DNA of 50,904 bases from an uncultured Bacteroidales bacterium (GTDB lineage: Bacteria > Bacteroidota > Bacteroidia > Bacteroidales > Paludibacteraceae): NCBI GenBank assembly GCA_902774995.1, contig CACYKR010000002.1, forward strand, positions 1 to 50,904, written 5' to 3'. The notes beneath the pieces are model-generated. The model searched no databases. It was not told the origin of the DNA and saw only the letters and a list, made by a program, of their open reading frames with translations. This document shows, one piece after another, positions 9,399-24,141 of the stretch; the first letter of the stretch is position 1, and each line of letters opens with the position of its first letter. Both the position numbers and the translations under genes were made by a program.

Positions 9399-9417
9399 AT
9401 ATACGCAAAATATCGTG

Positions 9418-9449
9418 CAAAGGTACGAAAAAAAAATGACATACACAAA
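9418..9449 (-). promoter_or_regulatory. Promoter of the lptD-slyD-der operon
   Basis: On the minus strand TTTGTGTATGTC (from 9449) leads through a T-run to TACCTTTG (9425-9418), with 19 bases between TTGT and the -7 box. Apart from one base (TTGT for TTGC) it is the same as the promoter at 46664-46694, including the T-run. Expected leader about 13 bases. Confidence 0.8.
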
Positions 9450-9470
9450 TAAAAAATCACGAACGAAAAG

Positions 9471-9495
9471 TATATATATACTATGTATATATATA
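9471..9495. repeat. Perfect AT palindrome, 11-3-11
   Basis: TATATATATAC, spacer TAT, GTATATATATA: two 11-base arms with a 3-base spacer, 22 bases upstream of the lptD -33 element, a position suited to an activator. The same geometry recurs at 33515-33539. Confidence 0.7.
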
Positions 9496-9574
9496 GAAAG
9501 TACCCTTTCGTGCGTGTTTTCCGGTTTGCTCCGATCGCCAGGGTTACTTTTTCCTTACTGTAACGGTATAGTAA

Positions 9575-10938: not shown

Positions 10939-10973
10939 TGAAAGTCGAAAGTCGAAAGCTGAAAGTTGAAAGA
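10939..10973 (+). repeat. Five heptamer tandem repeats in the GH3 leader
   Basis: Units TGAAAGT, CGAAAGT, CGAAAGC, TGAAAGT, TGAAAGA. They fill most of the leader between the expected transcript start and the GH3 start codon. A similar run overlaps the end of the HAD gene (13404-13424). Confidence 0.75.
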
Positions 10974-11010
10974 GCGGTCGGCATGTATGCCGACGGTTAA
11001 ACAAAGACAA

Positions 11011-12873
11011 ATGGCAGAGCGAAAAAAGACATATATGGATCAGGAGGGCAGGGCGTTGCCCTATCCCTGGCTGATCAATATCATGCTGATGATTGTCGGC
11101 GGGATGCAGACGATCCGTCTGCGTTTCTGGAGCCGCAAGCCGCGTCATGCAGCGGAGAAGACGCTTCGCGATATACTGACCATCTCCAAAGACACGGTGT
11201 ATGGAAAGGAACACCATTTCGACCGGATACTGAGTGCCACGACGGCGGAGGACCTGTTCCGTCTGTACCGGTTGTACGTGCCGGTGAACAACAGTTTCGA
11301 GACGCTGCGCCCGTATGTGGAGCGTCACAAGAACGGCGAGGAAGACGTGCTTTTCCCCGGCAAGCCGGACATGTACGCGACGACGTCGGGCACGACGAGC
11401 GAGCCGAAATGGATCCCGATGACGCACAAATACCTGAAGGACGTCTATGGGAAGATGAGCCATATATGGACATGGAATTTCGTGAAACACCGGAGCCGGA
11501 TTTTCGGCGGGCATATCTTCACCACAGTAGGCAAGGAATGTGAGGGTTACGCCCCTGACGGAACGCTGTACGGGTCCGTGAGCGGCGTGCTGGTACGCGA
11601 CATCCCGCCAATCATCAAGAAACACTACACGGCACCGGCGGCGGTGATGTCCATCCCGGATTACGCGGCGCGGAACTACACGCTGATGCGTCTGGCGTTG
11701 CAGCACCGCGACGTGACGCTGTGGGCAACGGCGAACCCTTCGACCATCTTAGAGCTGCTGCGGGCGCTGAACGAGAACACGGAGGAGATGCTCAACGACA
11801 TCGAGAAAGGCACTATCTGCGACGATTTCGAGATACCTTTCGCCATCCGTGACGAGCTGGACGGATACCTGTTCCCCAACCCCGAACGGGCAGAGGAGTT
11901 ACGGAAGATTCTGGCGGAAAAGGGTCATCTGTACCCGAAGGACTTCTGGCCGTGGCTGCAATACCTGAGTACCTGGAAGTGTGGCAACACGAAAATCTAC
12001 ATGGACAAGTACATGGACCAGTTTGACTGGGACAAGACGTTCTATCAGGAGTTGGGATATATCGCCACGGAATGCCGTTTCGGCTTCGCGCTGGACGAGA
12101 CGAACGAGAGCGTGCTTTTTCCGCAGTTCCATTATTACGAGTTTGTGGAGGAGAGCGAGTTGGAGAGCCCGCGCAAGCATTTCCTGCAGATAGACGAACT
12201 GGAGGTAGGGAAGCGTTACTGCGCGTACGTGACGACCTATTCGGGTCTGTACCGGTACAACATGAACGACCTGGTGGAAGTAGGAGGCAAATACTACGCG
12301 ACGCCGACGGTCCACATGGTAAGCAAGGTGAACGGCATTGTGTCGATGACCGGCGAGAAACTGTACGAGCCGCAGTTCATGAACGCTGTTCACCAGGCGG
12401 AGGAAGAGACCGGCGTGAAGACGAAGTTCTTTGTGGGTTTTGCGGACGTAGAGGAGTCGAAATACCATTTCTACTACGAGTTCGAAGACGAGAAGATGAG
12501 TCAGGCAGCGGCGGAAGCGTTCACGAAAGTGGTGGACGCGAAACTGCAGCAGATCAATGTGGAGTACGAGAGCAAGAGGCAGTCGTTCCGTCTGCATGAC
12601 CCGGAGACGCATATATTACTGTCCAACGCGTATGCGCGATTCAAGGCGGCGTGCCTGAAAGACGGCTTCCGCGACGGCCAGTTCAAATTCAACCTGCTGA
12701 TGCAGGACGAGAAACGCCGCACGAAGTTCAACCTCCTCCAACGGCTGGAGACCGGTTTCGAGCGTTTCAGCGATACCATAATCGAACGAGCAGACAAGAT
12801 AGATGAGAGACGTAAAGAACGTGCCAAACGGCGTACGAACCGTCGTGTTCGATCTGGACGGGACGGTGTATGA
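11011..12873 (+). CDS. GH3-family acyl-acid-amido synthetase-like protein
   Basis: A 620-residue cytosolic protein of the GH3 branch of the ANL adenylating superfamily. In plants these enzymes join amino acids to carboxylic acids through an acyl-adenylate; bacterial substrates are unknown. Visible motifs are the ATP-binding TSGTTSEPKWIPMT (about residue 130), GYIATECRFGFALDE in the middle, and GLYRYNMNDLVEVGG with SMTGEKLYEPQF near two thirds. The protein is longer than many Bacteroidota GH3 proteins and ends in a very basic tail (KIDERRKERAKRRTNRR). The ATG at 11011 sits after an A-rich stretch; an in-frame ATG at 10987 is possible. The last 71 bases overlap the HAD gene in another frame. 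It heads a same-strand run that continues to the steroid-reductase operon. Confidence 0.85.
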   Translation: MAERKKTYMDQEGRALPYPWLINIMLMIVGGMQTIRLRFWSRKPRHAAEKTLRDILTISKDTVYGKEHHFDRILSATTAEDLFRLYRLYVPVNNSFETLRPYVERHKNGEEDVLFPGKPDMYATTSGTTSEPKWIPMTHKYLKDVYGKMSHIWTWNFVKHRSRIFGGHIFTTVGKECEGYAPDGTLYGSVSGVLVRDIPPIIKKHYTAPAAVMSIPDYAARNYTLMRLALQHRDVTLWATANPSTILELLRALNENTEEMLNDIEKGTICDDFEIPFAIRDELDGYLFPNPERAEELRKILAEKGHLYPKDFWPWLQYLSTWKCGNTKIYMDKYMDQFDWDKTFYQELGYIATECRFGFALDETNESVLFPQFHYYEFVEESELESPRKHFLQIDELEVGKRYCAYVTTYSGLYRYNMNDLVEVGGKYYATPTVHMVSKVNGIVSMTGEKLYEPQFMNAVHQAEEETGVKTKFFVGFADVEESKYHFYYEFEDEKMSQAAAEAFTKVVDAKLQQINVEYESKRQSFRLHDPETHILLSNAYARFKAACLKDGFRDGQFKFNLLMQDEKRRTKFNLLQRLETGFERFSDTIIERADKIDERRKERAKRRTNRRVRSGRDGV

Positions 12874-13420
12874 CAAACGCGGTTTGGCGGGCCGGATGGT
12901 AGGCAAACTATGGTGGTGCCTGCCGTTGTTAGCCGCCGAACGTCTGGCGCGGCGTAACATGCACTATGTGCAGTTTGCGGACGAGGAGGAGTTCTTCGGC
13001 TATTTTTTTGCGACGATGTCCCGCGGTCACTGGTGGGGCGCAGGCATCGCGGCGGAGTGGTACCGTCATGTGTATATCCCCACAATGGTGCGGCTGATAG
13101 GCAAGTACCAGAAGACACGTCCGGAGGTGCTGGCTCTGATGGCTGAATGCCGCGAGCGGGGGATACGGATGGCCGTCTATTCGGACTACGGCGCGGTAGC
13201 GGAGAAGTTAGAGGTGTTAGGCATCGATCCGGGGCAGTTTGAGTTGCTGGTGTCCGCTCCGGAGTTAGGTGCGCTCAAGCCCTGCGAGCCGTGCGTAAGA
13301 CGAGTGATGGAGATGCTGGGGGCGGAAGGCGAGAGCACGCTTTTCGTAGGCGACCGTGAGGACAAGGACGGAGCAAGCGCCCGGGCTGTGGGAGCGAAGT
13401 TTTGGAAAGTTGAAAGTTGA
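12803..13420 (+). CDS. HAD-family phosphatase
   Basis: A 205-residue cytosolic haloacid-dehalogenase-like hydrolase. Motif I is VFDLDGTVYDK (nucleophile Asp followed by Asp two residues on), motif II VYSDYG, motif III Lys in ALKPCEP, motif IV VGDREDKDGASA. Between motifs I and II lies an aromatic-rich insert with a likely amphipathic or membrane-associated segment (LWWCLPLLAAERLARRNMHY), suggesting a lipid-linked substrate; this is inference. The proposed ATG lies 71 bases inside the GH3 gene; a GTG at about 12821 would shorten the overlap. With a neighbouring acyltransferase it may act in lipid metabolism. It ends in heptamer repeats that supply its last codons. Confidence 0.8.
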   Translation: MRDVKNVPNGVRTVVFDLDGTVYDKRGLAGRMVGKLWWCLPLLAAERLARRNMHYVQFADEEEFFGYFFATMSRGHWWGAGIAAEWYRHVYIPTMVRLIGKYQKTRPEVLALMAECRERGIRMAVYSDYGAVAEKLEVLGIDPGQFELLVSAPELGALKPCEPCVRRVMEMLGAEGESTLFVGDREDKDGASARAVGAKFWKVES

Positions 13421-13485
13421 GAGTTCTTATCTCGGCAAGGCCTCGAACGATCGGCTGAAGCCGTATGGATAGTTGAAAGGCGAGA

Positions 13486-14337
13486 ATGAACAAACGATAT
13501 ATAGATTTAGAAGTGACGGAGGGGACGTATGTGCCTCCGGTGAGGCTGGATTATCCGGAGGAGAATCCGTATGAGGGGATGTACAAACCCGTCTATGACC
13601 GTCCTTATCCGGCGATAGATGCGAGTTATCCGTACGTAGATGACAGTTGGCAGAACAGGCTGCGTATTTGGTTCGGATACCATGTGGTTCTGCAGATTCT
13701 GAAGGTATTCGTGCTGTATGTCAAATACGGGTTGCGGTACAAGGGGCGCGGTTATCTGAAACAATACAAGGCGGCGCTGAAGGGCGGTGCTATCACGGTA
13801 TCCAACCACTGCTACCGTCACGACTGCGCGTCCGTGCTCTCTGCTATCGGTGCGAGCCACCGGACACGTATCCCGATGTTCGCTCCGAACTTCCGGACGA
13901 AGGACCAGTTTTACCTCCGTATCATCGGCGGTATTCCCATTCCTCCTGTGGAGGAGGGGTTGAGCGCCATGAAGGCGTTCAACGGCGCTTTCGACGAGTT
14001 CCACAAGAGAGGTTATTGGTTTCATATCTTCCCCGAGGCGAAGCGTTGGGACTGGTACAAGCCGCTTCGTCCGTTCCAGAAAGGGGCGTTCACGATGGCC
14101 TACAAATACGGAATGCCGATTGTGCCCTGTGCGGTGACCTACCGGCCGCGGACAGGTGTTTACAAGCTGTTCGGGAAAGCCGATGAGCCGCTGATTACCG
14201 TAGTCATCGGCGAACCGATTATGCCGGACACTACGGCTCCCAGAGCGGTAGAGACCATGCGATTGTTGGACGTTACCCATCAGAAAATATGTCAGTTAGC
14301 GGGAATAAAGAAAAATACGTGGCCTAGCTCGCTCTAA
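13486..14337 (+). CDS. PlsC-like lysophospholipid acyltransferase
   Basis: A 283-residue protein of the glycerolipid acyltransferase family. It has one hydrophobic segment near residues 65-80 (GYHVVLQILKVFVLYVKYGL), the catalytic NHxxxxD motif as SNHCYRHDCAS, a GGIPIPPV block II and the third block as FPEAKRWDWYK in place of the usual FPEGTR. A PIVPCAVTYRPR strand closes the core. The members of this family transfer acyl groups to lysophosphatidate or ornithine lipids; the substrate cannot be told from sequence. It follows the HAD gene by 65 bases. Confidence 0.82.
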   Translation: MNKRYIDLEVTEGTYVPPVRLDYPEENPYEGMYKPVYDRPYPAIDASYPYVDDSWQNRLRIWFGYHVVLQILKVFVLYVKYGLRYKGRGYLKQYKAALKGGAITVSNHCYRHDCASVLSAIGASHRTRIPMFAPNFRTKDQFYLRIIGGIPIPPVEEGLSAMKAFNGAFDEFHKRGYWFHIFPEAKRWDWYKPLRPFQKGAFTMAYKYGMPIVPCAVTYRPRTGVYKLFGKADEPLITVVIGEPIMPDTTAPRAVETMRLLDVTHQKICQLAGIKKNTWPSSL

Positions 14338-14373
14338 TTGCAAAACTGCGTTTTACATCCCGAGGAATTTGCA

Positions 14374-15315
14374 ATGAAAAAAACGATATTGCCCATAATA
14401 GCCCTGTTGGTGTCGATGGTGATTTGGTCCATCAGCGGGATTGCCATCAAACAGGCGATGGAGGTGCTGCCTCCGCTGACGCTGATTATCTTCCGGTTCA
14501 CGCCGTCGGTGCTACTGATGCTGATTGTCGGACTGGTATGGCGCAAGAGCGACCTGGTAGGCCTGCAGAAGTTCGACCGGAAGGATTTGCCGTTGTTTCT
14601 GACAGCGGGTTTCTGCCAGCCGTTTCTGTACTATCTGCTTGAGACGTTCAGTTACCAGGCTCTCGACAGTCCTACTATCGCGGAGGCGCTTCTGTCCACG
14701 GGTCCGCTGATGGCACCTCTGTTCGCCATGGTGCTTCTGCACGAAAGAGTGACAAGGAACAATATCTTAGGTATCCTGATTTCCACGGGCGGTATGCTTC
14801 TGCTTATCTTGGCCGGCAGCAAGGAGTTCTCCATCGGCAATTACTGGGGTATTCCTCTGGCTTTCGTTGCCGTCTCAGCGGCTACGGTGGATTCCGTGGT
14901 GATGAAGAAACTCCCCGCCCGGTACAGTCCCTTGAGTATTATCTTTTATGCGCAGATTATCAGTCTGTTATTCTTCTATCCTCTATGGTTTTGGAAGGAA
15001 GGTCCTGCGGTGCTTAACACCATTGAGTGGGGGCAGTTGGCGGATATACATTCGACGGTTTCCATGGCGGTGATATGCGTGCGGTATCTGACGATTTTCT
15101 CAAGCGTAATAGCATTTATATTGTTCTGCTATGCGCTGCGGAAGATAGGCGTGACACAGGCGAATGCGTTCAATAATATCCGTCCGGCATTCACGGCCTT
15201 GTGGATGTTCCTGTTCTTCGGGGAAATACTGCCGTTGGGCAAATGGGCAGGTATGATTTTAGTCATTTTCGGCCTGTTTGTGTGTCAAAAACAAGAAAAA
15301 AAGCACAAAGTTTAA
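14374..15315 (+). CDS. EamA-family (DMT superfamily) membrane transporter
   Basis: A 313-residue inner-membrane protein with about ten hydrophobic segments in two EamA repeats, for example PIIALLVSMVIWSISGIAIK at the start and NIRPAFTALWMFLFFGEILP near the end. The family exports small metabolites such as amino acids or nucleotides; no substrate is evident. The ATG at 14374 has GAGGA 7 bases ahead and is preferred over an upstream in-frame ATG at 14338 that directly abuts the PlsC stop. The gene is last before the steroid-reductase promoter, which starts only 7 bases after its stop codon. Confidence 0.88.
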   Translation: MKKTILPIIALLVSMVIWSISGIAIKQAMEVLPPLTLIIFRFTPSVLLMLIVGLVWRKSDLVGLQKFDRKDLPLFLTAGFCQPFLYYLLETFSYQALDSPTIAEALLSTGPLMAPLFAMVLLHERVTRNNILGILISTGGMLLLILAGSKEFSIGNYWGIPLAFVAVSAATVDSVVMKKLPARYSPLSIIFYAQIISLLFFYPLWFWKEGPAVLNTIEWGQLADIHSTVSMAVICVRYLTIFSSVIAFILFCYALRKIGVTQANAFNNIRPAFTALWMFLFFGEILPLGKWAGMILVIFGLFVCQKQEKKHKV

Positions 15316-15321
15316 GAAATA

Positions 15322-15353
15322 TTTGCATATACGAAATAAATTTCGTACATTTG
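15322..15353 (+). promoter_or_regulatory. Promoter of the steroid-reductase operon
   Basis: TTTGC at 15322-15326, 19 bases after TTGC, and TACATTTG at 15346-15353, predicting initiation near 15360 and a 25-base leader. Most of the spacer is a perfect palindrome (next entry), a feature not seen in the other promoters of this window. Confidence 0.8.
15330..15347. promoter_or_regulatory. Candidate operator in the steroid-reductase promoter
   Basis: TACGAAAT-AA-ATTTCGTA, 8-base perfect arms with a 2-base spacer, lying between the -33 and -7 elements and overlapping the first two bases of the -7 box. A dimeric regulator bound here would block polymerase. Inferred from position and symmetry; no regulator gene is adjacent. 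Confidence 0.55.
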
Positions 15354-15384
15354 CAGACTTTTTGAACAATAACAAGCAATCGAT

Positions 15385-16200
15385 ATGGATTTTTTGAATA
15401 CCTCTTTTGGCGACCTGCTGTTTATCATGTTTCTGGTAGGTTTCGTTGTGTTTGTTTCCCTGTATTTCGTGGATGCCGGCTACGGCAAGATGCGTACCGA
15501 GAAATGGGGTCCGAGTATGAACAACAAAGCAGGGTGGCTTCTGATGGAATGCCCGGTTTTCTTTGTCGTCTGGTACGAATATTTCAAGGCGATTGGCAGT
15601 CCTGATCCGGTGGTGTCGGAGGCGGTGAAGAACGCGCCGTACTGGCTGTTTTTCCTGTTTTTCGAGTTCCATTATTTTCAAAGGTCGTTTATCTTCCCGT
15701 TCCTGCTGAAAGGCAAGAGCAAGATGCCTTTCGCCATCATGATTCTATCGGTGGTGTGGAACCTGATCAACGGTTATATACAGGGCTTCTTCCTGTTCCA
15801 TATCGCTCCGAAGGACCCGTATTATGCGCAGCTTTATACCTCGTCATGGCTGACCGATCCCCGTTTTATCATCGGAACGGTGATTTTCTTCACGGGATGG
15901 GTGATCAACATGCACTCCGACTACGTGATCCGGCATCTGCGCAAGCCTGGTGACACGAACCATTACCTGCCTAAAAAAGGTCTGTACAAATACGTGACGA
16001 GTGCCAATTATTTAGGCGAAATCACGGAATGGCTGGGCTTTGCGATCCTGACCTGGTCGTTAGCGGGATTGCTGTTCTTCTGGTTCAGCTGCTGCAACCT
16101 CATCCCGCGGAGCCACGCCATTTACAAGAAATACGAGGAAGAATTCCCCGACGAGTTCGACCGCAAGAAACTGAAACGCATTATACCGTTTATTTATTAG
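15385..16200 (+). CDS. 3-oxo-5-alpha-steroid 4-dehydrogenase (steroid 5-alpha-reductase) homologue
   Basis: A 271-residue polytopic membrane protein that, by family, reduces the delta4 double bond of 3-oxo steroids with NADPH to the 5-alpha product. The C-terminal half has the family signature in order: HSDYVIRHLRKPGD, YLPKKGLYKYVTSANYLGE, ITEWLGFAILTW, then NLIPRSHAIYKKYEEEFPDE and a final KRIIPFIY. Glu in LGE-ITEW and the HAIYKKY segment match NADPH-binding residues of the eukaryotic enzymes. Homologues in gut Bacteroidales act on bile-acid intermediates. It is first in a three-gene operon with its own promoter and candidate operator. An alternative substrate such as another enone is possible, but the two following genes fit steroid chemistry. 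Confidence 0.85.
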   Translation: MDFLNTSFGDLLFIMFLVGFVVFVSLYFVDAGYGKMRTEKWGPSMNNKAGWLLMECPVFFVVWYEYFKAIGSPDPVVSEAVKNAPYWLFFLFFEFHYFQRSFIFPFLLKGKSKMPFAIMILSVVWNLINGYIQGFFLFHIAPKDPYYAQLYTSSWLTDPRFIIGTVIFFTGWVINMHSDYVIRHLRKPGDTNHYLPKKGLYKYVTSANYLGEITEWLGFAILTWSLAGLLFFWFSCCNLIPRSHAIYKKYEEEFPDEFDRKKLKRIIPFIY

Positions 16201-16229
16201 ACCGCTTCGCTCAAAGTAGAAAGAGTTAT

Positions 16230-17516
16230 ATGAAAGAGAATAAGCTTTTCAGCCCATACCAGTTGGGACCGGTGACGCTGCGCAACCGAATCGTGCGCAG
16301 CGCCGCTTTTGAGAATATGGCCCGGGGCAACGCTCCGACGCAAGAGTTACAGGATTATCATGTGAGTGTGGCGCGCGGGGGCGTAGGCATGACGACCGTA
16401 GCGTACTGCGCCGTGGATCTGAGCGGTGTGTCGTTTGACGGGCAGTTATACGTCCGTCCGGAGATTATCCCTGCGATGAAACGCATGACCGACGCCATCC
16501 ATGCCGAGGGTGCCAAGGCGAGCATCCAGTTGGGGCATTGCGGCAACATGACCCATTTTTATACCTGCCACTGCATGCCGGTGAGTGCCGACACATGGTT
16601 CAACCTCTACAGTCCTACTATCCACCGTCGGCTGAAAGTGGCGGAGATCAAAGGGCTGGTGAAGAAGTTCGGCGAGGCAGTCGATTGGGCCCGAGCGTGC
16701 GGTTTCGACTGCGTGGAGATCCATGCCGGTCATGCGTATCTCATCTCGCAGTTTATCAGCCCCCGCACCAACCACCGGCGTGACGAATACGGCGGGTGTT
16801 TTGAGAACCGCGTGCGGTTCATGAACGAGGTGCTGGACGAGGTGATGGCCCATGCGGGGAAGGACATGGCAGTTGTGGTGAAGACGAACATGTGGGACGA
16901 CTGCTGGCACGGCTCGGATATCGAAGAGGGTATCCGTATAGCCAAGGAGATCGCCAAACACAAGGTACACGGTATCGTGCTTTCGGGCGGTACAGTGAGC
17001 CGTTCGCCGATGACGATTCTCGGCGGCGCCATGCCGTACAAGACGCTGGCGCATTACATGAGTATGAAATCGTTCTGGTGGCTCAAGGCGGCATTGAATT
17101 TCCCCGGCGTAGCACCAATTATGATGCCGACCCAGCCGTTCAAGGAACTGTATTTCATGGATAAGGCGAAGCGTTTCCAGCAGGAGATCAAAGATGTGCC
17201 GCTGATTTATGTGGGCGGCGTGCAGAGCGGCGACAACTGCCAGCAGATTATGGACGAGGGTTTTGAGTTGTTCCAGATAGCGCACGTGCTGATCAAGGAT
17301 CCGGATTTCGTGAAACATGTCCAGGAGGATCCGCATTACCACGCCGGCTGCGGGCGGTCTAACTACTGCGTAGGGCGCATGTACACGCTCAATATGAAAT
17401 GCCACGAGTGCGTAGAGCGCGAGGGTGAGCCGATACCGAACCGGTTGAAGAAAGAGATAGCCACGCTGGAGGCGAAAGCGCGGCAGTCCGTAGAACAACA
17501 GAGAGAAGGGAAGTGA
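16230..17516 (+). CDS. Old-Yellow-Enzyme-type flavin oxidoreductase (5-beta-reductase/BaiCD-like N-terminal domain)
   Basis: A 428-residue FMN TIM-barrel enzyme. Evidence includes LFSPYQLGPVTLRNRIVRSA at the start, SIQLGHCGNM, the CVEIHAGHAYLISQFISP catalytic region, then NHRRDEYGGCFENR and the phosphate-binding YVGGVQSGDNCQ. It lacks the C-terminal FAD/NAD(P) domain of full-length BaiCD/2,4-dienoyl-CoA reductases and stops after a Cys cluster (CGRSNYC, then KCHEC) that may be a remnant or variant iron-sulfur site. In gut Bacteroidales a flavin oxidoreductase of this type beside a 5-alpha-reductase reduces 3-oxo-delta4 bile acids to the 5-beta form. The start is 29 bases after the reductase stop; a longer frame from 16029 merely reads across that gene. 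Confidence 0.85.
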   Translation: MKENKLFSPYQLGPVTLRNRIVRSAAFENMARGNAPTQELQDYHVSVARGGVGMTTVAYCAVDLSGVSFDGQLYVRPEIIPAMKRMTDAIHAEGAKASIQLGHCGNMTHFYTCHCMPVSADTWFNLYSPTIHRRLKVAEIKGLVKKFGEAVDWARACGFDCVEIHAGHAYLISQFISPRTNHRRDEYGGCFENRVRFMNEVLDEVMAHAGKDMAVVVKTNMWDDCWHGSDIEEGIRIAKEIAKHKVHGIVLSGGTVSRSPMTILGGAMPYKTLAHYMSMKSFWWLKAALNFPGVAPIMMPTQPFKELYFMDKAKRFQQEIKDVPLIYVGGVQSGDNCQQIMDEGFELFQIAHVLIKDPDFVKHVQEDPHYHAGCGRSNYCVGRMYTLNMKCHECVEREGEPIPNRLKKEIATLEAKARQSVEQQREGK

Positions 17517-17517
17517 G

Positions 17518-18345
17518 ATGTTAGCATTAGTGACAGGTGCGTCGTCCGGTATCGGATTGCAATACGCTACGGCTCTGGCGCGGGATTACAGATGCGACCT
17601 GCTGCTGGTAAGCAACCAGCAGGCGGAGCTGGAGCAGGTAGCGGCGGAGCTGAAAGCGCAATACGGCGTGCAGACCGTGGCGCATTTCGCCGACCTGAGT
17701 CTGCCGGATGCCGCAGAGCAGCTTCATGCGTGGTGTGAAGAAGAGGGCTATACGGTTGACATACTGATCAATAACGCCGGTGTGTTCTTCTTCAATCCCT
17801 ATTGTGAGACCTTGATGAAGCGGATCGAGCTGATGTTGCAGTTGCATGTGATGACGGTAGCGAAGCTGACGCGCCTTTTCGCCGAGGATATGTGCCGGCG
17901 GGAGCTGACGGAGGAGGAAGCGGCTGTGCGTCTATGCGGACGGAGACGCATGAAAGGTTATATCCTGAATATGAGCAGTATGTCGGCGTGGATGGCGATG
18001 CCGGGTATTCAGACTTACAATGCCACCAAGGCGTTTATCTATAATTTCTCCAAATCGCTGTGGTACGAGTTGAAGCCGAAGGGGGTAGGTATTACCGTGA
18101 TGGCTCCGGGTGCTGTCGATACGGCACTGTTCGGCTTGGCGCCCCGTCTGCGCAGGCTGGCGGTGAACCTGACGGTAGCCATCCCGCCGGAGAAACTGGT
18201 CAAGCGGGCTTTGAAGGATTTGTTCAGAAACAGGAAAGCCGACACGCCGGGGTTCCTCAACTGGCTGTCCACGCCGCTACTCAAACACACGCCGGATTGG
18301 TTGCTCTTTTGGGCAATGAAATATGTAGGCAGGTATCAAAAATGA
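17518..18345 (+). CDS. Short-chain dehydrogenase/reductase, candidate hydroxysteroid dehydrogenase
   Basis: A 275-residue classical SDR. It has the dinucleotide-binding TGASSGIG at residue 7, NNAG at about residue 85, catalytic Ser in LNMSSMSAWM, and the YxxxK pair in QTYNATKAF, followed by APGAVDT. The basic residue at the end of strand 2 is absent (VSNQQAE), so the cofactor preference cannot be called. Its start codon is one base after the preceding stop, so co-translation is likely. Next to a 5-alpha-reductase and a flavin oxidoreductase, interconversion of 3-oxo and 3-hydroxy groups is the natural role; this is inferred from context, since SDRs are functionally diverse. Confidence 0.82.
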   Translation: MLALVTGASSGIGLQYATALARDYRCDLLLVSNQQAELEQVAAELKAQYGVQTVAHFADLSLPDAAEQLHAWCEEEGYTVDILINNAGVFFFNPYCETLMKRIELMLQLHVMTVAKLTRLFAEDMCRRELTEEEAAVRLCGRRRMKGYILNMSSMSAWMAMPGIQTYNATKAFIYNFSKSLWYELKPKGVGITVMAPGAVDTALFGLAPRLRRLAVNLTVAIPPEKLVKRALKDLFRNRKADTPGFLNWLSTPLLKHTPDWLLFWAMKYVGRYQK

Positions 18346-18371
18346 ACACATAGTTCCCGTATTATAAAACG

Positions 18372-18411
18372 ACACGATTATTAAGATTTATATGATGATT
18401 AATCGTGTTTT
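18372..18411 (+). terminator. Probable terminator of the steroid-reductase operon
   Basis: Perfect 9-base arms ACACGATTA (18372-18380) and TAATCGTGT (18400-18408) followed by TTT, 27 bases after the SDR stop. The 19-base loop is long and the stem AT-rich, so it could instead be a binding site. Confidence 0.5.
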
Positions 18412-18431
18412 GAGGGGTGAGAAGGTGTACG

Positions 18432-18452
18432 ATTATTAACAATCTTAATAAT
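18432..18452. promoter_or_regulatory. Candidate operator upstream of the TonB receptor promoter
   Basis: ATTATTAA-CAATC-TTAATAAT, perfect 8-base arms with a 5-base spacer, 27 bases upstream of the promoter. The motif ACGATTATTAA also occurs in the preceding stem at 18374-18384, so two related sites flank each other. Confidence 0.4.
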
Positions 18453-18478
18453 TGGACACTTTTTCTTATTGGCGGCTC

Positions 18479-18509
18479 TATGCCATATCAAAAAAAAGCA
18501 GTACCTTTG
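18479..18509 (+). promoter_or_regulatory. Promoter of the TonB receptor gene
   Basis: A good -7 box TACCTTTG (18502-18509) with a weak -33 region TATGCCATATC (from 18479) that is a degenerate form of the TTGCATATG seen elsewhere. A weak -33 suits an activated promoter. Confidence 0.55.
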
Positions 18510-18536
18510 CACCGTTTTTTTGGAAATAAGGTATAT

Positions 18537-21284
18537 ATGAAGAAGATTTACACGATTATTTTTACTTTGGTATTAGTCTCTTCTCTGCAGGCTGAGAAGT
18601 TAACCGGTATTGTAACCGATGCATTCACCCGTGAGCCGCTGATAGGTGTCTCGATCATGAACCTGGCCGACAGTACGGGTACGGTGACGGACCTGGACGG
18701 AATGTTCGAACTTCAGGTCAAGAAGGCACCGGTGAAGTTGCAGTTCTCCTATGTAGGTTATCAGACAGAGAGCAGGACGCTGAAGACTATTCCTGCCAAG
18801 ACGTATATCATGGCGATGCAGGCCGATAACGAGGTGCTGGACGAGCTGGTGGTTACGGCAGGCCGATTCGAGCAACGTATGACCGACGTGACGGTCAGTA
18901 TGGAGTTGCTCAAGCCGGAAGCCATCCGTCAGCAGGCTCCTACGGATCTCTCTGCTACGTTGCAGACTCTGCCGGGCGTAGAGATCATCGACAAGCAGCC
19001 CAGTATCCGTGGTGGCGGCGGATGGACCTACAGTGTAGGTTCGCGATGCCAGGTGCTGATGGACGGAATGACGATACTGAACCCCAAGACGGGTGAAATC
19101 AACTGGAACAACGTGCCGCTGGAGAACGTAGCGCAGGTGGAGGTAGTGAAAGGTGCTTCGTCGGTGCTGTACGGTTCGAGTGCGCTGAACGGTGTGATCA
19201 ATGTGCTGACCCAGCGTCCGGGTCTGGAGCCGAAAACGAAGATAAGCGGCTATGTAGGCGTATACGACAATTACAACAATTATAAGTACACGGGTGCGCG
19301 TCTTCCGCTTTATTACGGTGCGGAGGCCTCTCACTCGCGTCGGGTAGGGGACTTTGATATATCCGCCGCTATCAGCGGATTCAAGGACGAGGGTTACCGC
19401 CAGCAGAGCTTCAACGACCGTGTCCGTCTGGGCGGTAACATGACTTACCACGTACCGATGCCGGCAGACAAATACATGTCCGTAGGCGCGAATGTGAACT
19501 ATGTAGCCAACCGCTACGGCGATTTCTTCATCTGGCGCAGTCCGAAGGATCCGATTCATCCTTCGCCGCTGACCAACATGGGCCGTAAGGAGCACAATTT
19601 CAATATCGACCCGTTCTTCAACTACGACGATGTAGAGAAAGGCATCTCCCACAAGGTACGTGCGCGTTTCTACATGACGGCGGACAACCTGACTACTCCG
19701 AGCGAGAATATCAGCACGGAGGATCTGGTCAAATGGGCTGCCACGAGTTTCGATATGGAGAAGATCAAAGGGTATTACGACGAGGTGAAGGGTTATACCG
19801 ATGCAGGTGTTGCAATAGAGGATGCATTGCTGGTGACTTTTCAGGATGTAGCTATCCCTGTGTTGAACGAAGACTGGTTGGGAGCTGTCGTGAACGGAAT
19901 CGACCTCGTGAAGAACGGCTTGGGTTACAGCGGTACGGTAGCGGAGTTGCAGGACGCAGCGGCGTATGCCATGGCGCTTATTGCGAATAACGAACCGACC
20001 CGTCCCGAGTTGACCTATAACGGCTATATCGACTACCAGTTTGCCAAGCAGTGGAAGTCGGGCGTCCGTCTGACTACCGGTATCAACTGGAATCATATCA
20101 CCAATACCGCCAATATCACGGGAACCCACCAGACCGACAACCTGGCGGCTTATTTGCAGTACGACCACCGTATTGCCGACCGCCTGTCGCTGAGTGCGGG
20201 TGTGCGGTTTGAGTACTACCGCATGGATAATGACCTCAAGGAAGCTAATATTCAGATCGGTAAATGGCTCTGCCCGGTACGTCCGGTATTCCGCGCCGGT
20301 CTGAACTGGGAGATCTACAAGGCGGGATTCCTCCGCGCCAGCTTCGGCCAGGGTTACCGCAACCCCTCTATCACGGAGAAGTTCGCCCGCAAGGATATCG
20401 GCGGCGTAGGTGTCTATCCGAACAAGGATATCAAGCCGGAGTCCGGGTATAACGCCGAGCTTGGTTACAAGCAGCTTTATAAGTTCGGTCCGGTGTCCGG
20501 TACGATTGACGTAGCTGCATTCTACACCGAATACCGGAATATGATTGAGTATCAGTTCGGTCTGTTCCGTAACTCGGATTTCTCGATGATCAATTCGATG
20601 TATGACGTTATCGAGGAGGGGAAGAAAATGATTGACGATATCAAAGAAACCAAGTCTCTGAGCAATGCCGGTATCGGTATCGGTGCGCAGTTCGTGAACG
20701 TCAGTCATGCGCGTATCTACGGCGCGGAGGTGAGCACGGCAGGCAAGGTGGATATCAAGAAAGATATGGGACTGATGTACTCTATCGGCTATACCTTCAC
20801 CGAGCCGGAGGATATGGACAACAGCAAACGCATGGAGGAGGAGAAGAACTATACAGACCCGTTGCAGATGAAGAACAAGTCCAACGACTCCAAATATCTC
20901 AAATACCGCAACAAACACTCCTTCAAGGCTACGATAGACTACAATTACAGGTGGCTTTCGTTAGGTCTTAATATGTCGTACCGCAGCAAGATGTTGGCGG
21001 TGGACTACCTGATGGTGGATGAGCGGGAAAAGGATCAGGCAGACCTGATGGACTATGCGCGCAAGTTTATCTTCGGTTACGAGGACGGCATGTCGCTCCA
21101 TGACTACTGGATGGACCATAACAAAGGTGTGTTCACGATGGATCTGCGTGCGGCAGTGCGTTTCAAGGAGCACGTAGAGATGCAGTTTATCGTAAACAAC
21201 CTGCTCAATACGGAGTACAGCTACCGTCCGATGGCGTTAGCCGCACCGCGAACCTTCGTTTGCCGGATGAATATCACGTTGTAA
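18537..21284 (+). CDS. TonB-dependent outer-membrane receptor with CarboxypepD-like N-terminal domain
   Basis: A 915-residue outer-membrane active transporter. After a signal peptide (MKKIYTIIFTLVLVSSLQA) come a carboxypeptidase-regulatory-like domain (KLTGIVTDAFTREPLIGVSI), a plug domain (LQTLPGVEIIDKQPSIRGGG, QVLMDGMTILNPKTGEINWN, VEVVKGASSVLYGSSALNGV) and a 22-strand-type barrel ending in an aromatic-rich strand (TFVCRMNITL). There is no SusD partner, so it is not a polysaccharide-utilisation SusC; substrates of such stand-alone receptors include metal complexes, haem and cobalamin. The ATG at 18537 follows the promoter at 18479. An upstream frame start at 18417 precedes the promoter and lacks a signal peptide. 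Three secreted proteins follow on the same strand with short gaps. Confidence 0.92.
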   Translation: MKKIYTIIFTLVLVSSLQAEKLTGIVTDAFTREPLIGVSIMNLADSTGTVTDLDGMFELQVKKAPVKLQFSYVGYQTESRTLKTIPAKTYIMAMQADNEVLDELVVTAGRFEQRMTDVTVSMELLKPEAIRQQAPTDLSATLQTLPGVEIIDKQPSIRGGGGWTYSVGSRCQVLMDGMTILNPKTGEINWNNVPLENVAQVEVVKGASSVLYGSSALNGVINVLTQRPGLEPKTKISGYVGVYDNYNNYKYTGARLPLYYGAEASHSRRVGDFDISAAISGFKDEGYRQQSFNDRVRLGGNMTYHVPMPADKYMSVGANVNYVANRYGDFFIWRSPKDPIHPSPLTNMGRKEHNFNIDPFFNYDDVEKGISHKVRARFYMTADNLTTPSENISTEDLVKWAATSFDMEKIKGYYDEVKGYTDAGVAIEDALLVTFQDVAIPVLNEDWLGAVVNGIDLVKNGLGYSGTVAELQDAAAYAMALIANNEPTRPELTYNGYIDYQFAKQWKSGVRLTTGINWNHITNTANITGTHQTDNLAAYLQYDHRIADRLSLSAGVRFEYYRMDNDLKEANIQIGKWLCPVRPVFRAGLNWEIYKAGFLRASFGQGYRNPSITEKFARKDIGGVGVYPNKDIKPESGYNAELGYKQLYKFGPVSGTIDVAAFYTEYRNMIEYQFGLFRNSDFSMINSMYDVIEEGKKMIDDIKETKSLSNAGIGIGAQFVNVSHARIYGAEVSTAGKVDIKKDMGLMYSIGYTFTEPEDMDNSKRMEEEKNYTDPLQMKNKSNDSKYLKYRNKHSFKATIDYNYRWLSLGLNMSYRSKMLAVDYLMVDEREKDQADLMDYARKFIFGYEDGMSLHDYWMDHNKGVFTMDLRAAVRFKEHVEMQFIVNNLLNTEYSYRPMALAAPRTFVCRMNITL

Positions 21285-21342: not shown

Positions 21343-24141
21343 ATGAAAAAGATTTTCAGTATAGTATTACTGGTTTGCGTATCGGCTGTTTCTGCGCTGG
21401 CGGTGACGGTAGATGATGTAGCAGGTACGTTCCAAGGTACGCTTACTATCGGAGACAAAAACTATCCGAATAAAGAGGTATATATCCTGCCGGGTACGAC
21501 CAACAATGCCGTTACGCTTGTGTTTCCGGATGTTTCCTTCAGCAGCAAGAATGCGGATCTCGTCTTGATGAACATGACCCTGAATAGTAATGGTACGTTG
21601 TCCATTGGTAACGCTGATGCGTACATTAAACAAATCAGTGCATCCTCTGTCTCGGCGAAATCGATGTCTTTTACGTTCAGTATCACCACTCCGGCTTTGA
21701 CACAACCTGCTACTGCAAGCTTTAACGGAAGTAAGGTTTCCGATGAGAACTATGCTGTCACCAATGGTGGTTTCGAGGGAGCATGGAGCAATAACGAAGT
21801 TGAGGGTTGGCACTCGTTCCATACGGCAACAGGTTCATATGCCGGTACGATAGATAACACCACGCAGTTTACGCAAGCTACAGATGTGCGCCCGGGATCG
21901 ACAGGATCTCATAGCGCCCTCATACAATCTAAATATATGACTGTAGCAAAAGCCAACGGCAACTGTACCAATGGACAAATCAATGCCGGTTCGATGACAG
22001 CCACTAATGCTGATGGTAACTATAACTTCTCCGATCCATCTAATAACGGCTACAATACAAAATTTGTAGGAAATCCGGACTCTATCATCTTCTGGGCAAA
22101 ATATATCCCCGCTGATAAAAATCCGTCGAATAGTGTGAACAAAGCACGTATGCACACGGTCATCACCACTAACGCACGCTATCAGGACCCGGAAGCAAGT
22201 AACTATTCTTCTGTGAAGGTTGCAGAAGCGACCATCAACTATTCCGCTACGTCTTCCATGGGTTGGCAACGTCTGTCGGTTCCCTTTATTTACTCTTCGC
22301 TTGATCCTAAAAATGCGGCATTTATGTTGATCACTTTTACGACCAACCAGACGCCGGGTGCCGGAACAACGGGCAGAGGTAAGGTGGATAATGTTTATCT
22401 GGATGATGTAGAGATGGTTTATAACCATAGTCTGACTTCGCTGAAGATGAACGGTTCGACTATCTCTTTCCAGAACGGCAAGGCAAACTCCACGGAATAT
22501 TTCAGCGACAGCGATTATACTTTTGCCGCTACAACCAATGGTAAGGGAGCCAAGACGTTTGTGGGCTATGACGCGGCGAACAACCAAGTGCATTTCTACG
22601 TAGTAGGCCACAACTACTCGCAGGCGGGCGCGAGCGCGTATTCCTTATATACATTACAGATGGTAGAACCTATCCGTGACACCTATTACGAGTATGCGGC
22701 ATCGACCTGCGATAACGAACCGTATTCGGATAACTTGTTTACGAACCTGACGAAGGCGGGTACGTACCACGCAACCATCAAGAATGCAGCGGGTTATGAC
22801 TCCATCGTGACTCTGACGCTGAGCGTGCTGCCGACTTATACCATGCCGGCTACGGCTACCATCAATATGGATGAGACCTATATCTGGCGCGGCAAGGAAT
22901 ACAAAGACCTTGTGCCGGGTGTATATCACTATACCGACTCGCTGCATACCAAGGCCGGTTGCGACTCCGTCTTTACTTTAGAGCTGACAGTCAAACCGAT
23001 AGGTTATCTGGTAGATGAAGTGATGACAACCTGCCGGAACGAGGCTGTGGAATGGCACGGCAAGAAGCTCTCTACTACTGTTTCCGGGACGGTTGTTGCC
23101 TATGACTCGCTCCGGTCGGTGTATGGCATGGATTCTGTAGTACGTATGACGCTCACTGTGCTACCCACCTATACGCTGCCTGCTACGGCTACTATCCGGA
23201 TGGATGAGTCTTATACATGGCGCAAGAAGGAGTACAAGGATCTCGTACCGGGCGAATATACCTATTTCGACTCGCTGCAAACCCAAGCCGGATGTGACTC
23301 CGTCTATGTACTGACGCTGACAGTGATACCTATCGCTTATTCTTTCAAGGAGGAGATGACAGCCTGCCAGAACGAAGAGACCTCCTGGCACGGCAAGGCA
23401 TTGGTAACCGGTGCTCCGGGAGCCTATATGGTGTATGACTCTCTTAAATCGGTATATGGCATGGACTCCGTGTATGCTCTCTCGCTGACGGTACTGCCTA
23501 CCTGGCTCTCCAAGCCGGAGACTCACTACTCCAATACCGGGGAGATCACTTGGCGCGGAAAGACGATAGAGGGTTTGGCTTATGCCAACGAACCGTATTA
23601 TTTCTATGACACGCTGACCGCCTCTAATGGCTGTGACTCGATTTATGTGCTGTGTCTGTATGTATCGGATCTGCCTATCACACACGGCGAATACGAGGCT
23701 GCTTTCTGCGAGGGCGAGTCGGTAACATTTGAGGATAGTACTTATACGGAACCCTTCGAGGGAGACATCCGTCTGGAGCAGAAGAATAGCTATGGAGGCG
23801 ACTCCATCGTGCATCTGACCGTGACGGTTTATCCCAACTATGTAGTAGATCAATACCTGACTATGGTGAAGGGCGATAACCGGACCTGGGAGGGATGGAA
23901 TCTGAGTACCATGCCTCTGGGAGAGTTGACGCTCCGTGCGTATTATTACAGCGATTATGACTGTGACTCGACGATCGTGCTGCATCTGACGGTGAAGACG
24001 GCAGAGGAGATAGCTACGGGTCTTCCGGATGCACCTGATGCTCATGCCCGTTATACACAGAAGGTGCTCCAGAACGGCAATCTATATATCATCCGCGAGG
24101 ATGAATCCATTTATACTATTATTGGTACAAAAATCAAATAA
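21343..24141 (+). CDS. Secreted calycin-like/PCMD protein with GCDS repeats
   Basis: A 932-residue exported protein. Signal peptide MKKIFSIVLLVCVSAVSALA; residues 21-130 a calycin-like lipid- or ligand-binding barrel (VDDVAGTFQGTLTIGDKNYP); residues 140-360 a PCMD-type domain (NGGFEGAWSNNEVEGWHSFH, GNCTNGQINAGSM, VDNVYLDDVEMVYN). Residues 445-900 hold tandem beta repeats of about 85-110 residues, each closing in GCDS(V/I)(Y/F)xLxLTV or a GMDSV/GGDSIV variant, with a second Cys near the repeat start. It ends in a short tail KVLQNGNLYIIREDESIYTI (last 29 residues) shared by the next two genes, possibly a secretion or anchoring signal. It lies 58 bases after the receptor gene and its first two domains are paralogous to the next gene. 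Confidence 0.8.
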   Translation: MKKIFSIVLLVCVSAVSALAVTVDDVAGTFQGTLTIGDKNYPNKEVYILPGTTNNAVTLVFPDVSFSSKNADLVLMNMTLNSNGTLSIGNADAYIKQISASSVSAKSMSFTFSITTPALTQPATASFNGSKVSDENYAVTNGGFEGAWSNNEVEGWHSFHTATGSYAGTIDNTTQFTQATDVRPGSTGSHSALIQSKYMTVAKANGNCTNGQINAGSMTATNADGNYNFSDPSNNGYNTKFVGNPDSIIFWAKYIPADKNPSNSVNKARMHTVITTNARYQDPEASNYSSVKVAEATINYSATSSMGWQRLSVPFIYSSLDPKNAAFMLITFTTNQTPGAGTTGRGKVDNVYLDDVEMVYNHSLTSLKMNGSTISFQNGKANSTEYFSDSDYTFAATTNGKGAKTFVGYDAANNQVHFYVVGHNYSQAGASAYSLYTLQMVEPIRDTYYEYAASTCDNEPYSDNLFTNLTKAGTYHATIKNAAGYDSIVTLTLSVLPTYTMPATATINMDETYIWRGKEYKDLVPGVYHYTDSLHTKAGCDSVFTLELTVKPIGYLVDEVMTTCRNEAVEWHGKKLSTTVSGTVVAYDSLRSVYGMDSVVRMTLTVLPTYTLPATATIRMDESYTWRKKEYKDLVPGEYTYFDSLQTQAGCDSVYVLTLTVIPIAYSFKEEMTACQNEETSWHGKALVTGAPGAYMVYDSLKSVYGMDSVYALSLTVLPTWLSKPETHYSNTGEITWRGKTIEGLAYANEPYYFYDTLTASNGCDSIYVLCLYVSDLPITHGEYEAAFCEGESVTFEDSTYTEPFEGDIRLEQKNSYGGDSIVHLTVTVYPNYVVDQYLTMVKGDNRTWEGWNLSTMPLGELTLRAYYYSDYDCDSTIVLHLTVKTAEEIATGLPDAPDAHARYTQKVLQNGNLYIIREDESIYTIIGTKIK

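Follow-up and report, generated by a model that had tools for sequence, protein, structure and literature searches.

A steroid-reductase-like operon from a Bacteroidales bacterium with foregut relatives and its probable role in steroid A-ring chemistry

Gene clusters that join a membrane steroid 5-alpha-reductase (5AR) to an Old Yellow Enzyme (OYE)-type flavoenzyme and a short-chain dehydrogenase (SDR) are already known from work on bile acids in the human gut. Sato et al. (2021) is reportedly the source study of the Parabacteroides merdae cluster of 5AR, 5BR and 3-beta-HSDH, and of an Odoribacteraceae 3-beta-HSDH. According to the available text of a review, the P. merdae 5AR gene clusters with a predicted 3-beta-HSDH and an NADH:flavin oxidoreductase, P. 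merdae with a disrupted 5AR forms no alloLCA derivatives, and there are Bacteroidota strains with published bile-acid activity (PMC10382948). The literature that we found on the Bacteroidota 5AR/OYE/SDR cluster concerns hindgut bile acids and steroid hormones. Here we analyze an operon of this type from an uncultured bacterium of the Paludibacteraceae (contig CACYKR010000002.1); the window, the whole stretch of DNA analyzed, is 50,904 nucleotides long.

The initial annotation had read this locus as three adjacent genes between their own promoter and a probable terminator, and each of these elements is borne out. The open reading frames and Pfam matches, all above curated cut-offs, agree on three genes on the + strand separated by 29 and 1 nt. 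Upstream, positions 15322..15353 (+ strand) carry TTTG-N20-TACATTTG, which fits the consensus of a Bacteroidales-type promoter. In 32 of 81 sequences, the 160 nt preceding the 5AR frame contain this pattern (spacer 18–22), whereas 200 single-base shuffles gave 0.3 such sequences on average and never more than 4. A sigma-70 style scan was uninformative here (4 sites versus 5.1 expected). On the same strand, a terminator-like hairpin followed by T lies at 18371..18409; it is modest, at -11 kcal/mol and z -1.9 with equally good folding in 10 of 200 shuffles, and a short-loop scan did not list it. Comparisons with four relatives gave dN/dS values of 0.02–0.10 in the 8 of 11 cases where the ratio was computable; synonymous sites were saturated in 3 comparisons and close to saturation in a further 2.

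The first gene (15385..16200, + strand; 271 aa) encodes an SRD5A-type membrane 3-oxo-steroid 5-alpha-reductase homologue, as had been proposed. It matches Steroid_dh (PF02544) at 135 bits, relative to a cut-off of 22.6, and its profile scores 230 bits to PbSRD5A (7c83) and 177 bits to human SRD5A2 (7bw1) versus 52 bits to the enoyl-CoA reductase art-1. We rejected an enoyl-CoA-reductase reading because these scores favor SRD5A1/2-like enzymes. The AF2 model (pLDDT 84) has only two Foldseek matches at E<=0.001, both SRD5A enzymes: 7c83 (TM 0.81) and 7bw1 (TM 0.72). Using residue roles given in the available parts of two studies (PMC7815742, PMC7591894), we found the catalytic pair E55/Y97 (human Glu57/Tyr91) in all 81 sequences, along with the equivalents of N160, D164, R171, N193, E197 and R227; that of Y235 is present in 80 of 81. 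The protein thus has in common with PbSRD5A and human SRD5A2 the membrane fold, the Glu-Tyr pair and 7 of 8 listed NADPH residues, and differs from them in carrying Met for Gln56 and Ile for His231. The His231 position is Ile or Val among the 5AR sequences, and H231A is described as an exception in which the human enzyme remains active (PMC7815742, available text). Gln56 of the human Q-E-Y motif, on the other hand, is reported as highly conserved, and the same study finds that Q56A/L abolishes activity. The equivalent residue is Met54 in 81/81 and 24/24 sequences, in 20/20 5AR proteins of the Parabacteroides group and in 6/6 distant relatives. Since Parabacteroides, a genus with published 5AR activity, carries the same Met, the substitution is probably tolerated. 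We treat Gln56 as a subtype mark and define the SRD5A fold family without it; the protein is a member of that family outside the Q-E-Y type.

The second gene (16230..17516, + strand; 428 aa) encodes an OYE-type FMN ene-reductase, a candidate 5-beta-reductase or delta4-dehydrogenase. It matches Oxidored_FMN (PF00724) at 190.9 bits, and its AF2 model (pLDDT 91) has the OYE/DCR fold. Our alignment of relatives holds 76 rows of 401–449 aa except for two (464 and 527 aa) with probable start errors, a contig-end fragment (L086) being omitted. The His-His-Tyr active site (H165/H168/Y170) is kept in 75 of these 76. The initial annotation had suggested 5-beta as well as 5-alpha products; a 5-beta direction is putative for this enzyme, which shows neither the tested marks of BaiCD nor those of the ci2350 clade. 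BaiCD (NF041087) and 2,4-dienoyl-CoA reductase (1ps9) have the FMN barrel domain in common with the flavoenzyme, but they run to 642 model positions and 671 aa; ours lacks the C-terminal FAD/NAD domain and has altered Cys spacing. Its cluster reads C374-x5-C380-x10-C391-x2-C394, with residue 394 Cys or His among relatives, and does not match Cx2Cx3Cx11C, which we take to be the cluster motif of Fe-S flavoenzymes of the BaiCD/dienoyl-CoA-reductase type (1ps9 shows the first three of these Cys). With a score of 173 bits to NF041087 against a cut-off of 825, BaiCD membership was rejected on length, Cys motif and cut-off alike. The steroid-hormone 5-beta-reductase ci2350 (PMC12238238) has the OYE superfamily and the catalytic Tyr in common with it (Y170 = ci2350 Y167), whereas Asn166 and Ser171 of ci2350, mapped through 1ps9, correspond to Ala169 and Gln174 here. 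Across the 76 aligned rows, position 169 is Ala in 42, Gly in 31, Ser in 2 and X in 1, and position 174 is Gln in 75.

Could this flavoenzyme instead be a general ene-reductase that, with the SDR, detoxifies dietary enones, the 5AR being a broad partner? Its nearest solved structures include OYE-fold YqjM and PETN reductase, and it is the sole PF00724 match in its own genome, as might suit such a role. Nevertheless, a general detoxifier would not be expected to be linked almost invariably to a steroid reductase of the membrane, and we regard xenobiotic reduction as very improbable.

The third gene (17518..18345, + strand; 275 aa) encodes a candidate 3-hydroxysteroid dehydrogenase (adh_short, PF00106, 120.3 bits). 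Classical SDRs carry TGxxxGxG, NNAG and S-YxxxK motifs. The translation contains TGASSGIG, NNAG and S154-Y167-K171, which identifies the protein, by its motifs, as a classical SDR. A search for a close solved structure found none, the best match being 4bmv (E 9.8e-19). In the tree, SDRs split into two clades (support 100/99): SDR-A, to which this protein belongs, and SDR-B, the type that accompanies 5AR in loci of Parabacteroides and Bacteroides.

A survey of gene order, which the initial annotation had suggested, shows how general the arrangement is. Of the best 80 loci from named relatives, 76 have OYE downstream of 5AR, 70 of them with a gap of <200 nt, and 56 have an SDR-A that follows 5AR at a distance of <=5.5 kb. 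Across other genomes, OYE at E<=1e-40 is present in 22 of the 23 with a strong 5AR (>=47% identity) versus 8 of the remaining 174; judged by coordinates, 5AR and OYE are close neighbors in 19 of these 23. The pairing of 5AR and OYE exceeds chance. Among genomes with a weaker, full-length 5AR (36–43% identity), OYE is present in only 4 of 13.

Directly upstream on the same strand lie GH3, HAD, PlsC-type and EamA genes, with which the operon might instead serve one of the cell's own lipids, of a non-steroid (enoyl or polyprenyl) kind. Among 76 loci with >=1300 nt upstream, and with generous search distances, relatives of these genes occur near 5AR in 22, 18, 19 and 35, respectively. Certain SRD5A relatives reduce polyprenol, according to the available text of one study (PMC7591894), and art-1 is among the 5AR profile matches, although it scores far below the steroid reductases. 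However, GH3 is rare and unlinked to 5AR in an order-wide draw (10 of 198 genomes, own included). Of the 23 other genomes with a strong 5AR, just 4 contain GH3, and there on different contigs from 5AR. Patchy presence of 5AR in the Parabacteroides group (20 of 38 genomes; 13 of 26 near-complete ones) also misfits an essential lipid pathway. A lipid substrate therefore appears improbable. Of the 22 loci with GH3 near 5AR, 18 fall in the >80% identity group (the others are L060, L065, L066 and L076), and we rejected the upstream genes as part of the system: their linkage is genuine within this lineage without being a general feature. The downstream TonB receptor was also rejected as an operon member, as it carries a promoter-like TACCTTTG of its own and just one of 80 loci (L035) has a relative of >40% identity downstream.

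Taken together, the operon probably encodes three enzymes that jointly interconvert A-ring forms of 3-oxo-delta4 steroids, with dietary plant steroids the most likely substrates here. The 5AR, judged by its fold and residues, would deliver NADPH hydride onto C5 from the alpha face. The soluble FMN enzyme may act on the 4,5 bond from the opposite face, giving 5-beta products, or run in reverse from 5-beta 3-ketones to the delta4-3-ketone; we infer this role from its almost invariable pairing with 5AR and from published Bacteroidota work. The SDR would oxidize or reduce the C3 oxygen. Acting jointly, the three could saturate delta4-3-ketosteroids, flip 5-beta to 5-alpha configuration and epimerize C3. 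Several observations count against this A-ring reading: Met for Gln56, an OYE without the FAD/NAD domain, an SDR without a close structure, weaker-5AR genomes mostly without OYE, and hindgut relatives with SDR-A.

Our reading of the substrate draws on habitat. Forestomach samples from cattle, sheep and deer yielded several of the closest relatives. Among the 20 loci of >80% identity, 12 are foregut-labeled (5 by organ name and 7 by the label RUG, which we take to mean foregut), 0 are hindgut and 8 carry no site. Because the foregut lies upstream of bile entry, these relatives suggest that plant steroids, for instance sapogenins or sterol ketones, are the most likely target in preference to bile acids, an ecological argument that is far less certain than the chemistry. 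The initial annotation had itself offered its substrate range as inference, plant sterols among the options. It had also carried over the bile-acid pathway of colonic Bacteroidales, in which secondary bile acids become allo- and iso-bile acids. Of that transfer, the steroid A-ring module and the likeness to P. merdae stand; the foregut relatives and the different SDR clade speak against it. The published bile-acid activity of Bacteroidota fits such a pathway, as does a 5AR-OYE pair shared with Parabacteroides, Bacteroides and Coprobacter loci. Hindgut species do appear among relatives at 50–73% identity (19 of 80 loci), several with the same SDR-A, and bile acids are present there. A bile salt hydrolase had no match in the operon's own genome (86.7% complete), a weak point against bile acids. 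We consider bile-acid conversion unlikely here, although its odds overlap with those of the plant-steroid reading because the chemistry is shared and the substrate differs. The available text of a paper on bile-acid microbes in dairy cows says nothing on 5-alpha or Paludibacter (PMC9750977).

In the rumen, oxidation and reduction turn sapogenins into epismilagenin, smilagenone, smilagenin and tigogenin, according to the available text of one source (PMC10385484). This conversion needs A-ring steps of the operon's kind, and the literature matches listed name no genes for it. We tentatively suggest, as a speculative extension, that in Paludibacteraceae-like Bacteroidales of the rumen, operons of this family might be the missing genetic basis of ruminal sapogenin saturation and C3-epimerization. 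If so, it would explain the conversion of diosgenin to smilagenone, epismilagenin and tigogenin, a step that yields the compounds behind hepatogenous photosensitization of grazing sheep. Our results raise two questions: by which rumen microbes, and with which genes, plant sapogenins are reduced, and what function the 5AR-OYE pair of Bacteroidales originally served. They also caution that not every Bacteroidales 5AR cluster is a bile-acid operon. The altered motifs, namely Met for Gln56 and a short flavoenzyme with a changed Cys cluster, are specific targets for mutagenesis and spectroscopy.

In summary, the locus resembles the P. merdae cluster in that a membrane 5AR adjoins an OYE-type gene (here across a 29 nt gap) and is accompanied by an SDR. 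Identity to P. massiliensis is 55% for 5AR and 51–52% for OYE, with Cys394 and Ala169 here in place of His and Gly. The third gene does not support the initial claim of the same trio: it is SDR-A where Parabacteroides loci have SDR-B, with 23% identity to the SDR adjoining 5AR in Parabacteroides. Unlike the P. merdae system, the operon has foregut-labeled closest relatives, and this foregut-lineage version of a known cluster points to other substrates.

The three-gene operon placed here by the initial annotation is real and conserved. On the forward strand, ORFs at 15385-16200, 16230-17516 and 17518-18345 agree with the positions first given and encode an SRD5A-type membrane reductase (5AR; Pfam Steroid_dh), an FMN ene-reductase (OYE; Oxidored_FMN) and a short-chain dehydrogenase (SDR; adh_short), all above cut-off and separated by 29 and 1 nt. 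In the ORF list the OYE gene begins at 16029, but ATG 16230 agrees with homologue starts. Upstream of 5AR, the promoter pattern TTTG-N20-TACATTTG (15322-15353) occurs in 32 of 81 upstream regions, compared with 0.3 in shuffles, and a terminator-like hairpin downstream of SDR (18371-18409) beats shuffles only modestly (z -1.9). In comparisons with four relatives, dN/dS was 0.02-0.10 in 8 of 11 cases, with synonymous sites nearly saturated in 2 of these 8 and saturated in the other 3.

A survey of gene order, proposed in the initial annotation, covered the best 80 of 581 confirmed 5AR relatives. OYE lies downstream of 5AR in 76 of these loci, with a gap below 200 nt in 70 and the largest gaps in loci L106 (1.4 kb) and L108 (1.9 kb), and is absent from 4. 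Within 5.5 kb downstream of 5AR, an SDR of the window's clade (SDR-A) occurs in 56 loci, the SDR typical of Parabacteroides-type loci (SDR-B) in 9 and both in 4; OYE is present without an SDR in 15, six of which have less than 3 kb of downstream sequence. In a draw of 198 genomes from the same order, 23 besides the window's own contain a strong 5AR (at least 47% identity). All of these except G001 have an OYE at E<=1e-40 (22/23 vs 8/174 others), and in 19 of the 23 the coordinates place 5AR and OYE as close neighbours on one contig. This pairing is the best evidence that both enzymes serve one pathway. Weaker full-length 5ARs (36-43% identity) are accompanied by OYE at the same threshold in only 4 of 13 genomes (G075, G100, G152 and G179), and G145, G164 and G195 have an OYE match with no listed 5AR; thus, the pairing is a trait of this 5AR clade and not of the whole family. 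Individual loci vary: a four-helix-bundle ORF (TIGR02436) lies between 5AR and OYE at L068:7814-8203, L059 and L075 have gaps similar in size to that of L068 (459-464 nt), and in L033, the closest named relative, the OYE frame (8222-9542) is seemingly broken near its end, perhaps through assembly error.

Directly upstream on the same strand (10966-15315), profile matches identify a run of GH3, HAD, PlsC-type acyltransferase and EamA transporter genes, retained as a block in most of the closest relatives among the best 80 of 581; the GH3 gene is lyso-ornithine-lipid-synthetase-like (89 bits vs a cut-off of 620), and the run is possibly a separate amino-lipid pathway. Downstream, a TonB-dependent receptor gene (18417-21284) has a promoter-like TACCTTTG of its own near 18502 and probably starts at ATG 18537 rather than the listed GTG. 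An NCBIfam search found nothing for the 932-aa ORF at 21343-24141, which contains repeated similar segments.

Structure prediction and comparison with characterised reductases bore out the assignment of 5AR as an SRD5A homologue. A profile of 24 relatives scored 230 bits against PbSRD5A (7c83), 177 against human SRD5A2 (7bw1) and 52 against the enoyl-CoA reductase art-1, and the predicted structure (pLDDT 84; poor at 33-36, 188-204 and 267-271) had no match at E<=0.001 other than 7c83 and 7bw1. In a hand-read profile alignment, with the 7bw1 chain offset by 4, human E57, Y91, N160, D164, R171, N193, E197, R227 and Y235 correspond to window E55, Y97, N175, D179, R186, N208, E212, R242 and Y250. 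These residues are kept in 81/81 sequences, except Y250 (80/81); in a 24-sequence set (A1), the N160 position varies in one sequence and the N193 position in two. In contrast, the window 5AR has Met and Ile where human SRD5A2 has Q56 and H231. The Met is present in 81/81 sequences, 24/24 of A1, 20/20 Parabacteroides-group 5ARs and 6/6 more distant relatives; the Ile is present in 80/81, the remainder having Val. According to mutagenesis reported for the human enzyme, Q56A/L abolishes activity, whereas H231A is an exception that retains it, and the QEY motif shows high conservation across the enzymes examined there (PMC7815742). Nonetheless, we infer, by extension from the genus to P. merdae, that M-E-Y is probably a working Bacteroidota variant of Q-E-Y: this Met recurs throughout the Parabacteroides group, and disrupting the 5AR of P. 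merdae is reported to remove alloLCA derivatives (PMC10382948).

The flavoenzyme model has an OYE fold (pLDDT 91), with YqjM, dienoyl-CoA reductase and naphthoyl-CoA reductase among its top ten structure matches, and the protein is the sole PF00724 match in its own genome. H165, H168 and Y170 are kept in 75/76 sequences, as are C374, C380 and C391; at position 394, 67 sequences have Cys, 7 have His and 1 has Thr, while 1 lacks the residue. The cysteine spacing differs from that of BaiCD, a bile-acid flavoenzyme, and of dienoyl-CoA reductase. Past the barrel the protein has only a Cys-rich C-terminal segment, and 74/76 aligned rows are 401-449 aa long. Lacking an FAD domain, it may be reduced by NAD(P)H directly, by a ferredoxin-like donor or through steroid-to-steroid hydride exchange. 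At the two positions described as distinguishing steroid-hormone from bile-acid reductases (PMC12238238), it has Ala169 and Gln174, which match neither group as described there.

The source genome is 2.18 Mb and 86.7% complete. Among the best 80 of 581, the best named 5AR relatives are titled Bacteroidales or Paludibacteraceae, with RUG715 at 94% and rumen MAGs from sheep and dairy cattle at 85-86%. Titles assign 30 of the 80 to the foregut (17 via the RUG label, which we take to mean rumen or foregut origin, and 13 via an organ name), 19 to the hindgut and 31 to no site. The 20 loci above 80% identity comprise 12 foregut (7 RUG, 5 organ name), no hindgut and 8 without a site; hindgut-labelled relatives sit at 50-73%. 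These labels hint strongly, short of proof, at a foregut habitat for the closest relatives, since part of the foregut count depends on this reading of RUG and public collections of herbivore MAGs are possibly skewed towards the rumen. In a separate comparison of G041 with G081 and G185, the window 5AR and OYE are nearer to those in genomes of another family (74% and 80%) than to those in a genome labelled as the window's own family (51% and 60%), a hint of either transfer or differential paralogue loss.

These labels bear on the bile-acid role initially proposed. The cluster type is known from Bacteroidota in which 5-beta 3-oxo bile acids are reported to pass through 3-oxo-delta4 to iso-allo forms via 5BR, 5AR and 3-beta-HSDH (PMC10382948, PMC9645264, PMC11271093), but the apparent foregut habitat speaks against bile acids being the main substrate of the window lineage. 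Bacteroidetes from other guts commonly have 5AR genes as well: nearly all Bacteroidetes isolates of a chicken-caecum collection reportedly carried one (PMC6069880), and in women gut 5AR gene abundance is reported to be associated with the DHT/testosterone ratio (PMC12589954). The simplest reading is that the operon would apply Bacteroidota bile-acid A-ring chemistry to other steroids. Among candidate products, smilagenin is 5-beta and tigogenin 5-alpha. Rumen studies describe hydrolysis of plant saponins and oxidation and reduction of the sapogenins to epismilagenin, smilagenone, smilagenin and tigogenin (PMC10385484), with diosgenin converted to epismilagenin, whose conjugate is lithogenic, by saturation and epimerisation (PMC5535167). 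Forming these products would take steps in both the 5-beta and the 5-alpha direction plus redox chemistry at C3; none of the matches listed in literature searches named genes for ruminal sapogenin conversion. Entry of a 3-beta-hydroxy-delta5 sapogenin would further require oxidation and delta5-4 isomerisation, beyond the genes shown here.

Finally, the operon is a further member of an already known cluster type, although the Parabacteroides group does not bear out the first suggestion of the same trio: the 5AR-OYE pair is common to both, but the SDRs fall in separate clades. SDR-A and SDR-B (62 and 8 rows) separate with support of 100/99 in a tree whose long branches were flagged by the program, and are 23% identical. 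SDR-B adjoins 5AR-OYE in Parabacteroides, Bacteroides and Coprobacter loci. The genus of G105 is treated as Parabacteroides on the strength of one member whose 5AR and OYE are 100% matches to those of P. massiliensis. Of its 38 genomes, 20 have a 5AR; OYE is adjacent in 18 of these loci (one of them truncated by a contig end), SDR-B is next in 17, and the 1.5 kb of flank at each locus contained no SDR-A, although one lying further out would escape notice. Four other named loci (best 80 of 581) carry both SDRs in tandem, so the two may have been early neighbours that were then lost differently. The window's own genome has one SDR-A paralogue (39% identity) and no close SDR-B (best match 27%). 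In L038, L056, L059, L063, L095 and L100, two SDR-A copies stand in succession; the second has 48-54% identity to the window SDR in all of them but L095, where the match is weak. Thus, the third gene is SDR-B in the Parabacteroides group, whereas in the window operon it is the non-orthologous SDR-A.
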